Source of the DNA: Candidatus Woesearchaeota archaeon
GTDB lineage: Archaea; Nanobdellota; Nanobdellia; Woesearchaeales; JABIAG01
Assembly: GCA_018653365.1 (NCBI GenBank)
Contig: JABIAG010000003.1
Coordinates: 62,001-126,000, forward strand
Length of the DNA stretch: 64,000 nucleotides
Direction of reading: 5' to 3'
Below the pieces are notes generated by a model. The model was not told the DNA's origin. It made no database searches and saw only the letters and a list, made by a program, of their open reading frames with translations. This document shows, one piece after another, positions 15,776 to 42,251 of the stretch. Both the position numbers and the translations under genes were made by a program. Position 1 is the first letter of the stretch. Every line of letters starts with the position of its first letter.

Positions 15776-15925
15776 GGGCCCATAGCTCAGTCTGGTTAGA
15801 GCGCTGAGTTTAAGAGGCAACTCTTATTCGCGCAAGTCTTATATGATGTTTTTGGTTGCAATGAAAAAATGCCAAGAATACTCTAAGCCAGCCAGAGGTC
15901 CGGAGTTCAAATCTCCGTGGGCCCA
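15776..15925 (+). tRNA. Intron-containing tRNA, isotype not resolved
   Basis: Acceptor GGGCCCA/TGGGCCC, D-arm GCTCAGTCTGGTTAGAGC, T-arm CGGAGTTCAAATCTCCG, discriminator A; about 75 nt excess in the anticodon region including TAAGAG-GCAA-CTCTTA. Confidence 0.75.
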
Positions 15926-15930
15926 TACAT

Positions 15931-16018
15931 GCGGTAGTAGTGTAGTGGTTTAGCATCGGTCGTTGCCAATTAAAAGCAAAAACGATTGGACCCGAGTTCA
16001 AATCTCGGCTACCGCACC
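15931..16018 (+). tRNA. tRNA-Gly(GCC) with short (~13 nt) anticodon-loop intron, CCA encoded
   Basis: GCGGTAG acceptor, GGTCG-TTGCCA(A)...CGATT anticodon arm, T-arm CCGAGTTCAAATCTCGG, ACCA. Confidence 0.85.
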
Positions 16019-30464: not shown

Positions 30465-30834
30465 GGTAAGAAGGTGATTGGCTTACGGGGTTTACCCTGA
30501 GGAAAGTCCACCCACCGTTGAGTTGTTAATGTCGAAAGGCATCCCCAGAGATGGGAGGGCAACTGAGCAGAAACGATACCTTGTCAAGTTAAGGATGACG
30601 TTGAGAAACTGACGTTCCTTGTCTTACGAAAGTGAGACGGCAGAAATCTTTGATTTCGGCCGAATGAGGCTGAAACGTTGAATGATATCGCATTCAGTGT
30701 GCTTTATAGCATAGCAGTCCTAACCGGTGCAAGCCGGAAACACTTGTCAAAATGAGTGTTGGCGCTTAGTATAATGCCAAAACGTGCTGTCTGATTACAG
30801 AGCATGACAAAAGGTGGCTTACAGCCTTCTTACC
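30465..30834 (+). ncRNA. rnpB: RNase P RNA
   Basis: GAGGAAAGTCC core, P1 pairing GGTAAGAAGG/CCTTCTTACC, GGTGGCTTACAG 3' region. Confidence 0.93.
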
Positions 30835-36452: not shown

Positions 36453-36529
36453 TTATTTTTTCTTTTTTCTTTATTGTTTACCTCTATTAAACCAAAACCT
36501 TTTTAAATGAACTGCGGCTTCTTTTGGGT

Positions 36530-36724
36530 ATGATAATCCCAATTAGATGCATGAGTTGCGGTAAACCTGTTGCACAATTCTGGGAAGACTTTTGTGAAAA
36601 AAAGAAAACTACTGATGTTAAGAAAGTTCTTGACTCTTTTAAGTTAGATCGAGCTTGTTGTAGAACGGCTTTGATGGGTAATGTTGATCTTATTGATATT
36701 GCTGCTCGTTTTAAGAAAGCATAA
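36530..36724 (+). CDS. rpoN: DNA-directed RNA polymerase subunit N
   Basis: MIIPIRCMSCGKPVAQFWEDF...RACCRTALMGNVDLID. Confidence 0.95.
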   Translation: MIIPIRCMSCGKPVAQFWEDFCEKKKTTDVKKVLDSFKLDRACCRTALMGNVDLIDIAARFKKA

Positions 36725-36765
36725 GTTTTTTATACTTCTTCATATTCTAATAGTTTAGAGCTTAA

Positions 36766-36813
36766 ATGAAAACTAACAAATTAGCAATACTTGAACTGCT
36801 GCTGTTAGAATAA
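36766..36813 (+). CDS. Candidate Leu-rich leader peptide MKTNKLAILELLLLE
   Basis: ATG AAA ACT AAC AAA TTA GCA ATA CTT GAA CTG CTG CTG TTA GAA TAA; TATA-like TTTTTTATAC ~30 nt upstream; lies between rpoN and leuS. Confidence 0.5.
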   Translation: MKTNKLAILELLLLE

Positions 36814-36818
36814 TTTTC

Positions 36819-36885
36819 ATTACTGAGCTCTTAAAATTCTAAAAAATTTTAATGAGCCTGTCAGTAATATTTAAATAAAGCTCAG
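36819..36885 (+). promoter_or_regulatory. Candidate attenuator-like hairpins upstream of leuS
   Basis: ATTACTGA-GCTC-TTAAAATT / AATTTTAA-GAGC-TCAGTAAT 20-bp hairpin (819-868) and alternative CTGAGCT(823-829)/AGCTCAG(879-885). Confidence 0.55.
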
Positions 36886-36901
36886 GGTTAGAGGTATTAA
36901 A

Positions 36902-39754
36902 ATGGTTGATTTCAAAAAGCTAGAAAAGAAATGGCAGAATGCTTGGGAAGATAAGAGTACATTTAAGGTAGAAGTTAATGACAAAAAGAAGTTCTACATT
37001 GCGATTGTTTATCCTTATATGAGTGGGCTTTTACATGTTGGTCATCTCTATACTTATGTTCCTTCTGAAATCTTAATGAGATATAAGCGAATGCAGGGTT
37101 TTAATGTATTGGCCAAATTTGGTTTTCATTGTACTGGTTCTCCTATTGTTACTGCGGCTAAAAAGGTAACTGAAAAAGAACCTTCTCAGTTAGAATCCTT
37201 AAAAAAGATGGGAATTAAAGAAAGTCAGTTTGTAGATTTTGAAAAGCCTGAACATTGGGTGGATTATTTTTCACAAGAAACTTTAGTTGATCTAAGTTCA
37301 ATTGGGTTTTCAATTGATGCAAGATACACTTTCAAAACTACATCTTTAAATCCGCCTTATGACGCATTCATTCGTTGGCAGTTTAATAAATTAAAAGAGA
37401 AAGGCCATGTTAAGAAAGGTAAACACCCTGTTGTTTGGTGTCCAAAGTGTAATTCTCCTGTGGGGGATCATGCAAGATCTGAAGGTGAGGGAGAAACACC
37501 TAAAGATTTTATTTGGGTTAAGTTTAGATTGAAAGATTCAGATCTTATTTTAATGGCAGGTACAACCCGGCCTGATGCATTGTATGGTCAAACACATTTG
37601 TGGATTGATCCTAATGGTAAGTACAAAGTTGTTGAAGTTAATGATGAGAAGTGGGTTGTTGGAGCAGATACTGTGAAAAAGATTGAAGAACAGTATGCTT
37701 CAGTTAAAATTGTGGGAGATATTTCTCCAAAAGAGCTAATCGGCCGTTGGGCAAAAGGTCCATTAGTAGATTATGACGTGTATATCGTTCCTGCTTGGTT
37801 TATTGATGCTAGTGTTGGTTCTGGAATTGTTTATTCTGCTCTTGAAGATCCTGTTGATTTGTTTGAGTTAAAGAAAATTCATTCAAATATGAAAATGTTA
37901 AACGAGTACAACCTTGATAAAGATGTTGTTGCAAAATTAAAACCCTTCCCAATAATTAAGGTTTCAGGAATGGGAGATAATCTTGGAGAAGAGATTGGTA
38001 AGGAATTCAATATTACTTCTCCCGACGAAACTGAAAAGGTTAAAGCAGCAAAGGATGAATTGAACAAAAGAGTTTTTAGAAAAGGTGTTATGCAGGATAA
38101 TTGCAGAGCTTGTTCTGGGATGACTGTTTCTGAATGTCAGGAGTACCTTAAAGAACACTTAGTTAAGAATGGTGAAGCAATCATGTTTTATGAGTTTACA
38201 AACAAAGTAGTGTGTCGTTGTTTGACTGATGCAATAATTAAGATGGTTTCTGATCAGTGGTTTATTGAATATAATGATCCCAAATGGAAGAAACAAGCAC
38301 ACGAGTGTTTGGATAAAATGCAAATTTTTCCTTCTGAAACAAAAAAGCAATTTAATTATGTTATTGATTGGTTAAATCACTGGGCATGTACAAGAGAATT
38401 TGGTCTGGGAACCAGACTTCCTTGGGATACAAAATGGATTATTGAATCGTTGTCAGATTCAACTATTCAAATGGCGTATGGTACTATCTCTAAATACTTG
38501 CAACACCCTGAAGATTACGATTTTAAAATAGATAAGTTGAATGATGAGTTTTTTGATTATGTGATGTTAGACAAAGGCGATGTTAACGTAGTTGAAAAGT
38601 CTACAGGCATATCAAAAGTTAGGTTAAATACAATGAAAACGGATTTCGAATACTGGTATCCTTTTGATTTTAGAAATTCGGCCAAGGATTTAGTACAAAA
38701 CCATTTAACCTTTTGTATGTTTAATCACACTGCAATTTTTCCTAAGAAGCATTGGCCTAAAACTTTCATGGTTAATGGTAGGGTGATGGTGAATAATGAA
38801 AAAATGTCTAAATCTAAAGGTAATTTCTTTACTATTAGAGAACTTTATCAAGCACATGGTGCTGATGTAGTGCGGTTAACTGCTGCTAATGCGGGAGAGG
38901 GTATTAATGACGCAAATTATGATATGGCTTTCTTAGAAACTGCTAAGAAGAAGTTGAGTGAGTTGTTAGATTTTGCTCAAAATAATTATGATAAAGGAAG
39001 AGATGAAGTTTTATCAATTGATAATTGGTTTGAATCAATGTTGAATAAATCTGTTAAAGAAACAACAGAAAACATTGAGAATATGAAATTTAAGTCTGCC
39101 ATCAAAACTGGTTTTTTAGATATGCAACGAAACCTAAAGACATATCTTAATAGAACTAAAAATAGTCCGAATAAAAAGATGATTAATCAGTTCATTGAGG
39201 TTCAAACTAAATTGCTTGCTCCGATAACTCCTCACGTTTGTGAAGAAATTTGGGAACTTATTGGTAAGGAAGGGATGGTTTCTCTAGCTGAATGGCCAAC
39301 TGTTGACGAATCCAAAATTGATGAGTCTTTAGTTGAAATTGAAAACATTTTTGCCAAGGTTGTTTCAGACATATCTAAAGTATTAACTCTTGCTAAGATA
39401 ACTGCTCCTAAAAAAATAACTTTATTTATTTCTGAGAGTTGGAAATATTCTTTTTTCAAAAAGTTAAAGGAAGAATTAGATAATACTCGTAATGTTGGTG
39501 AATTAATTAAGGCAACTTTGGTAAAAGGTCATGAGAAAGACATTCCTAAGTTGATTCAGTCTATTTTAAAGGATTCTTCTAAACTGCCTGCAACCGTGAC
39601 TTCTCAGAAGCAAGAGGTTGATGCATTAACACAAGAGCTTGATAATTTGAAAGGTAAATTTGGTGCTGAAGTAGAGATTATAAAAGCTGAAGATTCTAAA
39701 GAAGCTAAATCAAAATCTGCTTCTCCTGGTAAACCCGCTATTTTGGTAGAGTGA
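36902..39754 (+). CDS. leuS: Leucyl-tRNA synthetase
   Basis: YPYMSGLLHVGHLYTYV, KMSKSKGNFFTI, CTREFGLGTRLPWD. Confidence 0.95.
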   Translation: MVDFKKLEKKWQNAWEDKSTFKVEVNDKKKFYIAIVYPYMSGLLHVGHLYTYVPSEILMRYKRMQGFNVLAKFGFHCTGSPIVTAAKKVTEKEPSQLESLKKMGIKESQFVDFEKPEHWVDYFSQETLVDLSSIGFSIDARYTFKTTSLNPPYDAFIRWQFNKLKEKGHVKKGKHPVVWCPKCNSPVGDHARSEGEGETPKDFIWVKFRLKDSDLILMAGTTRPDALYGQTHLWIDPNGKYKVVEVNDEKWVVGADTVKKIEEQYASVKIVGDISPKELIGRWAKGPLVDYDVYIVPAWFIDASVGSGIVYSALEDPVDLFELKKIHSNMKMLNEYNLDKDVVAKLKPFPIIKVSGMGDNLGEEIGKEFNITSPDETEKVKAAKDELNKRVFRKGVMQDNCRACSGMTVSECQEYLKEHLVKNGEAIMFYEFTNKVVCRCLTDAIIKMVSDQWFIEYNDPKWKKQAHECLDKMQIFPSETKKQFNYVIDWLNHWACTREFGLGTRLPWDTKWIIESLSDSTIQMAYGTISKYLQHPEDYDFKIDKLNDEFFDYVMLDKGDVNVVEKSTGISKVRLNTMKTDFEYWYPFDFRNSAKDLVQNHLTFCMFNHTAIFPKKHWPKTFMVNGRVMVNNEKMSKSKGNFFTIRELYQAHGADVVRLTAANAGEGINDANYDMAFLETAKKKLSELLDFAQNNYDKGRDEVLSIDNWFESMLNKSVKETTENIENMKFKSAIKTGFLDMQRNLKTYLNRTKNSPNKKMINQFIEVQTKLLAPITPHVCEEIWELIGKEGMVSLAEWPTVDESKIDESLVEIENIFAKVVSDISKVLTLAKITAPKKITLFISESWKYSFFKKLKEELDNTRNVGELIKATLVKGHEKDIPKLIQSILKDSSKLPATVTSQKQEVDALTQELDNLKGKFGAEVEIIKAEDSKEAKSKSASPGKPAILVE
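39730..39752. repeat. Direct repeat copy 1 (leuS 3' end), partner at 41084-41106
   Basis: TAAACCCGCTATTTTGGTAGAGT vs TAAACCTGCTATTTTGGTAGACT, 21/23 identical. Confidence 0.8.
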
Positions 39755-41921: not shown

Positions 41922-41982
41922 GGGCTCGACCGTAGGGAGACCCACTTCGCTTCCCATTGGCGAAAGAATGGAGTGGAAGACG
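41922..41982. repeat. Structured interspersed element, copy 1
   Basis: GTGGGCTCGACCGTAGGGAGACCCACTTCGCTTCCCATTGGCGAAAGAATGGA; second copy near 52643. Confidence 0.7.
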
Positions 41983-42027
41983 CGTTCAAAGATGAGAACC
42001 AATAACAAGAACTAGTTTATTCCTATA

Positions 42028-42251
42028 ATATCCTCCCCTTCGCGACCCTTAAGACACCCTCATTAAAGATTAGTGCTGCTCCATTCCTGGTCTGACACGG
42101 TTTTCAAAAATAAAAGTCCTCAAGGACAAAGGATCGACGAACACCATAGGACTAATACTTGAAATTAATCCTGCTCTTCGAACTTCAACTCCTCTAAAGC
42201 CCGTTTGAGGTAACAGGAGAGAGCTAACCTCCCAGTCTAGTCTTCCATCCC
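42028..42251 (-). ncRNA. Signal recognition particle (7S) RNA
   Basis: Minus strand: Alu-type GGGAGGTTAGCTCTCTCCTGTTACC...; S-domain GTGTCAGACCAGGAATGGAGCAGCACTAA; TATA-like CTTTTTATAAGC at about 42268-42278. Confidence 0.88.

Follow-up and report, generated by a model that had tools for sequence, protein, structure and literature searches.

Immediately upstream of leuS, the gene for leucyl-tRNA synthetase (LeuRS), in a 64,000-nucleotide stretch of Candidatus Woesearchaeota DNA (contig JABIAG010000003.1, positions 62,001 to 126,000; hereafter the window), there is a short open reading frame (the mini-ORF), MKTNKLAILELLLLE, that contains six Leu codons (TTA CTT CTG CTG CTG TTA), is preceded by a TATA-like box and is followed by a long hairpin. 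An earlier note on this DNA had proposed that translation of the mini-ORF ties the expression of leuS to the charging of Leu-tRNA. On re-reading the sequence we found every element which that note had listed, the TATA-like box, mini-ORF, hairpin, pairing segments and leuS itself, exactly in place (Table 1), and the proposed link to charging is now strongly supported by comparative sequence evidence, as mini-ORFs ending in runs of the cognate amino acid precede seven types of synthetase gene in a related family. The window genome (G000) is archaeal and 1.09 Mb in size, its nearest LeuRS relatives are labelled Candidatus Woesearchaeota, and it has cognate leaders of its own before both leuS and pheS.

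Cognate leaders in the window genome

Dinucleotide shuffling of the leuS spacer yields, in 0.56% of cases, a mini-ORF that follows a TATA box and has four or more Leu among its eight final residues; when the same criterion was applied across G000, it selected one gene out of the 533 with an upstream gap of at least 60 nt, that gene being leuS. A scan of the genome for tails of any single residue returned a handful of matches. Outside the window, a mini-ORF with a Phe tail, MKHLNQFAVSFGLDSAFFFF (G000:C2:22763-22825; L202:2763-2825), lies 88 nt 5' of pheS, the identity of the gene as the alpha subunit of PheRS resting on Pfam (PF01409, E 3e-80); there are three Phe-tail mini-ORFs in G000, and one of them is this one. 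With two cognate leaders at two synthetase genes in the same genome, chance is hard to maintain. A separate Phe-rich mini-ORF, MIFFFFSFQFFI (G000:C2:131363, plus strand, also outside the window), is located 45 nt 5' of a ferredoxin-like gene that has no evident link to Phe.

Leaders in a related family and their shared anatomy

The comparison, in which no other genome represented the window's genus or family, centered on another family of its order, for which ten genomes were found by a LeuRS search. In that family a TATA-proximal, nearly leaderless mini-ORF with a Leu tail precedes 10 of the 11 leuS loci, the exception being in G238. The encoded peptides are MILSQLKLLL, MIKYKILVLLL, MKTGLLLLR, MKTTILLLLL, MEMKSGLLLL, MIKGQLLLVLLL, MNLQPNLLLILLI, MNLKFLLILLN, MNNLGLALLLLL and MKLNGLDLLLLLVL. 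The leuS genes concerned belong to two separate LeuRS lineages and the leader is found in both, which indicates that the element tracks the host group and not a single gene lineage. One genome (G328) has a leuS of each lineage on different contigs (L095 and L161), each with its own Leu leader; these are either paralogues or a sign of a mixed assembly. Two of the leader-bearing genomes bear SI bin names, SI037_bin40 and SI047_bin43. Upstream regions were also read for several dozen further leuS genes from this order, and no comparable TATA-proximal Leu-tail leader was seen among them.

The same arrangement recurs at other synthetase genes of the family, where the tail changes with the gene. Ile tails precede ileS in 7 of 10 genomes (for example MNQNATGIISIIII, MFSDNIVVSIIII and MTKKVNNIISIIII) and Val tails precede valS in 6 of 9 (MYSIWKTLSVVVAN, MNIILKSVFVVVVN and MYQLFKTVSVVVV among them), while there are Thr tails at two of seven thrS genes (such as MSKLNISKIVTITTTTITC), Ser tails at two of seven serS genes (such as MRSTSSSIS), a Tyr tail at one of nine tyrS genes (MNNLYFSYGFYKYY) and a Phe tail at one of 11 pheS genes (MDTYVVSFNHIFFFI, in G182); proS had none (0 of 4 in the family, and none in a count of five genes), and no leader was seen at trpS. 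The Phe tails at pheS had been predicted before the final genome search, and as they proved to be present in G182 and absent from nine other family genomes, this prediction held weakly. TATA-preceded tails of a single residue were found before synthetase genes 33 times, and 31 of them match the amino acid of the gene (counting one weak ileS case in G000, MKELMRMFGKDIIKPTPNI), compared with a mean of 6.9 and a maximum of 17 in 100,000 label permutations.

Such leaders might also extend beyond the synthetases. In G238, for which the any-tail scan covered 800 of 1158 kb, a Tyr-tail mini-ORF, MHKPAAQSKYSYYYYC, precedes the gene for a biopterin-dependent aromatic amino acid hydroxylase (PF00351; L292, gene 1684-2448), a type of enzyme able to convert Phe into Tyr; this mini-ORF may be the leader of a gene for an enzyme of amino-acid metabolism. 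A Phe-tail mini-ORF of the same genome, MAYTESVSGFFFFN (in the region L288:5204-6806), is found before two genes without a Pfam assignment and a gene for pterin-4a-carbinolamine dehydratase (PF01329).

The codons within the runs look selected. AUA appears once in the Ile leaders, where 17.1 occurrences are expected from their own genomes (z -5.2); CUC (13 against 4.7 expected, z 4.1) and CUG (18 against 9.2, z 3.2) are in excess in the Leu leaders, and GUG is over-used in the Val leaders (z 2.5). For the window mini-ORF, CTG accounts for three of the six Leu codons as opposed to 5% of Leu codons in G000. Selection at the level of codons would be expected if decoding by particular tRNAs matters, whereas none would be expected for runs that owe their existence to the peptide as such or to low-complexity DNA.

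The set of 31 leaders also shares an anatomy. Nearly all of the mini-ORFs are situated ~28-33 nt 3' of an archaeal TATA box (TTTAAATA or TTTATATA), so that they are expected to be leaderless or nearly so, and the residue run is at the end of the ORF, usually 0-2 codons before the stop. In 14 of the 31, CATTG occurs no more than 25 nt 3' of the stop (shuffled mean 0.73, maximum 5), the element in the window being CATTA. T is abundant (41-46%) and A scarce (20-21%) at positions +0 to +20 from the stop, and the remaining spacer is A-rich, a profile unlike that of ordinary gene ends. Between the mini-ORF stop and the synthetase gene there are 42-125 nt. A Shine-Dalgarno sequence (SD) is found on 26 of 29 leader-preceded genes, as against 26-30% of genes with an upstream gap of at least 60 nt in the same genomes, which suggests that the mRNA from which the gene is translated is probably a longer one; a strict TATA box, present in the spacer of the window and in several leuS spacers, is absent from all seven ileS spacers, and this absence, together with the SD excess, fits a single transcript that begins at the leader promoter and includes the gene. 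The computational observations thus comprise the mini-ORFs and the cognate identity of their runs, their codon choice, the placement of their promoters and the SD on the downstream gene. Among the ileS, valS, phhA and phe leaders in the G118/G238 family, a Ser often occupies the first position of the cognate run or the one preceding it (IISIIII, LSVVVAN, VSGFFFFN, KYSYYYYC).

The leuS locus and its pairing segments

Table 1. Features at and around the leuS leader (positions are those of the window)
Feature	Position	Strand	Description
Small upstream gene	36524-36724	+	putative RNA polymerase subunit Rpb10 (rpoN), identified by eye
TATA-like box TTTTTTATAC	36726-36735	+	31-40 nt 5' of the mini-ORF ATG
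Segment A	36757-36772	+	5' leader and mini-ORF start; complementary to post-stop segment B
GAGCTT	36758-36763	+	pairing segment
Leader mini-ORF MKTNKLAILELLLLE	36766-36813	+	15 codons, ATG...TAA
Leu codon run CTG CTG CTG TTA	36796-36807	+	one codon before the stop
Segment B	36814-36831	+	stop-proximal; partner is A or the hairpin 3' arm
TCATTA	36817-36822	+	inside B; window version of the post-stop CATTG element
Post-stop hairpin (B:C)	36819-36868	+	20 bp, bulges of 1 and 3 nt
CTGAGCT	36823-36829	+	pairing segment
TGAGC	36853-36857	+	pairing segment
TATA-like TTTAAATA	36870-36877	+	32 nt 5' of leuS; possible second, leuS-proximal promoter
Segment D AGCTCAG	36879-36885	+	partner of A in the minimum-energy fold
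GAGGT	36891-36895	+	Shine-Dalgarno-like, of leuS
leuS	36902-39754	+	leucyl-tRNA synthetase, 950 aa; Pfam PF00133 and PF08264

The TATA-like box of the window is weaker than the boxes of the other leaders and slightly more distant, and the leader transcript is predicted to start at ~36755-36760, which would leave it with a very short 5' untranslated region (UTR). The putative Rpb10 ORF ends 42 nt 5' of the mini-ORF, and a similar gene precedes leuS in several relatives, both leader-bearing and leader-less. The leader region is not covered by any Rfam family, and there was no match to the Rfam T-box between 30833 and 41974 at gathering thresholds. Elsewhere in the window, Rfam places an archaeal RNase P RNA gene at 30466-30833 (plus strand) and an archaeal signal recognition particle RNA gene at 41974-42247 (minus strand). 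Two tRNA genes on the plus strand (15776-15925 and 15931-16016) match the Rfam tRNA model and were missed by ARAGORN; both are long, the first having 150 nt, and are therefore probably intron-bearing.

The structures at this locus are far from random. The 60 nt after the mini-ORF stop fold with an energy of -16.6 kcal/mol, compared with a shuffled mean of -4.5 and with none of 500 shuffles as good, and the duplex of A with B has an energy of -15.8 kcal/mol, which is equalled by 0.1% of shuffles. As segment B is common to both, the A:B and B:C pairings are mutually exclusive.

Probable sensing of tRNA charging and its alternatives

Judged from the genomic pattern, cognate leader peptides are real in this order, and it is most likely that they sense tRNA charging; to this extent the leader-peptide reading of the earlier note appears to have been right, and its reach wider than proposed. 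For the window we consider it probable that the region upstream of leuS is a cis-acting leader-peptide control element of this archaeal class, sensing the charging of Leu-tRNA.

A number of results weigh against this reading. For the window itself, the main doubts come from its nearest LeuRS relatives, among which it stands alone, and from a possible second promoter. Those relatives (L018, L019, L060, L103, L111, L115 and others) are without the mini-ORF and their leuS promoters are mostly of the leaderless type, so that the window element is isolated in its own clade; the lack of a mini-ORF in relatives, which the earlier note had named as a point that would count against it, is thus true of the closest ones, whereas mini-ORFs are present in more distant genomes of a different family. 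The TATA-like box 32 nt before leuS is a caveat for the single-transcript model, since leuS could also be transcribed from there, and many synthetase genes of the leader-bearing family have no leader. The post-stop structure of the leuS leaders as a set is not above that of shuffles (mean z +0.18), an intrinsic terminator hairpin with a U-tract before the structural gene is not conserved across leaders, and the frequency of runs of five or more T 3' of the mini-ORF stop does not exceed that found after ordinary genes. The competing hairpins which had been read as a switch would therefore seem to be right for the window sequence only. Finally, complementarity between the 5' leader and the post-stop region in the 31 leaders gave within-gene-type p values of 0.002-0.017, and pairing of the post-stop region with the mini-ORF start in the leuS leaders alone gave p ~0.01 as one among 36 tests, but spacer controls in an unrestricted permutation likewise reached p 0.002-0.007; genome composition thus accounts for part of the A:B signal, and controlling for gene type leaves a modest cognate A:B complementarity.

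On these grounds, pairing of the post-stop region with the mini-ORF start was rejected as an invariant feature. Most ileS leaders have a short stop-proximal hairpin in place of CATTG, and RNAalifold on a MAFFT alignment of them returned no consensus structure; a conserved terminator hairpin after the mini-ORF, absent for leuS and without an ileS consensus, was also rejected. As intrinsic termination in archaea takes place at poly(U) (PMC8116511), the missing hairpin and U-tract reject the bacterial form of attenuation and not the principle.

How might such a leader work? From the promoter, a transcript would start almost at the ATG of the mini-ORF, and the 15-codon peptide would be translated as soon as the RNA appears. 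When charged Leu-tRNA is scarce, the ribosome would slow on CTG CTG CTG TTA with its front edge covering the stop codon and segment B; when charging is good, it would complete the mini-ORF and depart, leaving B exposed. Exposure of B would lower synthetase expression and its coverage would raise it. We infer the translation, the stalling and the direction of control, the last of these (low charging raises expression) from physiology. What B does is the least certain part of the model. Our first choice is that, when exposed, it would lead to early transcription termination or RNA cleavage at the post-stop pyrimidine-rich stretch, for which the archaeal U-tract pathway and/or aCPSF1/FttA are candidate machinery and against which the stalled ribosome would act as a shield; in the window, the A:B and B:C pairings may form an added structural layer. 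More tentatively, and with somewhat more doubt than confidence, one can imagine a multi-gene attenuation regulon in Woesearchaeota, comprising leuS, ileS, valS, thrS, serS, tyrS, pheS and one or more genes for amino-acid enzymes, in which leaderless cognate peptides sense charged tRNA and a stalled ribosome keeps archaeal termination or cleavage (by U-tract or aCPSF1/FttA) away from the CAUUG/U-rich element that follows the stop, without the choice between hairpins of the bacterial type.

The alternative with the most to recommend it is translation attenuation of the erm type, where a stall of the leader ribosome would free an otherwise paired SD/AUG of the synthetase gene. In the fold of the G328a leuS leader the post-stop region does pair with the SD/AUG, and masking the first 18 nt after the stop raises the accessibility of the ribosome-binding site (RBS) for G356 leuS, G119 thrS and the window. 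The mean gain on masking is nevertheless 0.055 as compared with 0.033 in shuffles, and ileS and valS show none; RBS sequestration was rejected as a general mechanism on these averages, and we regard this alternative as unlikely. Less likely still is that the window mini-ORF is a chance ORF and that leuS is expressed from the proximal promoter as in the nearest relatives: the leaderless-type promoters of those mini-ORF-free relatives, the box at 36870-36877 and the CATTA in place of CATTG are all consistent with it, but it has to contend with the rarity of the arrangement among shuffles (0.56%) and in the genome's own genes (1/533), with the cognate pheS leader of the same genome, with the enrichment of the rare CTG in the run and with a class that appears real in the order.

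It is very improbable that the mini-ORFs simply boost downstream translation by reinitiation or coupling, with no sensing of charging. Reinitiation at leader genes has been proposed for bacteria, but the distance favoured there is 10-16 nt (PMC4833913) as opposed to the 42-125 nt found here, and it leaves both the 31 of 33 cognate runs and the codon selection unexplained. We can give hardly any credence to the idea that the leader encodes a small hydrophobic peptide with a function of its own in trans, perhaps at the membrane; the runs of Leu, Ile, Val and Phe do have the hydrophobic character that this would require, yet Thr, Ser and Tyr runs occupy the same position, the sequences are unconserved outside the run, and the residue of the run follows the identity of the downstream gene.

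Ribosome-mediated transcription attenuation is a familiar mode of control in bacterial amino-acid and synthetase operons such as trp, his, ilv and pheST. Attenuators with cognate leader peptides before bacterial synthetase genes have been established or predicted, including candidate leuS attenuators in Streptomyces (PMC1262725). The archaeal leaders resemble these in having a short ORF with a cognate codon run near its stop before a cognate synthetase or biosynthetic gene, and in the window also in the mutually exclusive RNA pairings, but differ in their archaeal promoter, nearly leaderless mini-ORF and conserved post-stop CAUUG element, in the lack of a conserved terminator hairpin with U-tract, and in a host termination machinery that is archaeal. 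A parallel to the lack of a terminator is provided by the leaders of Actinobacteria that have no obvious one (those of cys operons and the LEU element of leuA; PMC1262725); in these, too, the cognate codon run lies close to the stop and a conserved terminator is missing, and for them a factor-dependent mechanism, with Rho as the factor, has been suggested (PMC1262725). These are bacterial, however, and the LEU elements have a conserved pseudoknot, and an archaeon would have aCPSF1/FttA and not Rho. T-box riboswitches also place synthetase genes under the control of tRNA charging, but none matches the leuS locus in Rfam, and sensing here would use translation of the mini-ORF.

Within the archaea, ribosome profiling of Methanosarcina mazei has revealed translated small ORFs in 5' UTRs (upstream ORFs), although attenuation is absent from the main text of that report (PMC11456600). 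Termination by U-tracts and by aCPSF1/FttA has been reviewed, the intrinsic form acting at poly(U) stretches, and coupling of transcription and translation is expected in archaea (PMC8116511). The literature that we searched contained no account of ribosome-mediated attenuation or of cognate leader peptides in archaea, an absence that is not in itself proof. If our reading is true, leader-peptide control either spans the domains or arose separately, and would be workable without the terminator hairpin of bacteria. It would also offer a natural setting in which to test the signalling from ribosome to transcription termination in archaea, and a simple genome signature with which other archaea might be scanned. 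It would also bear on how amino-acid shortage is met in these poorly known and often small-genomed lineages.

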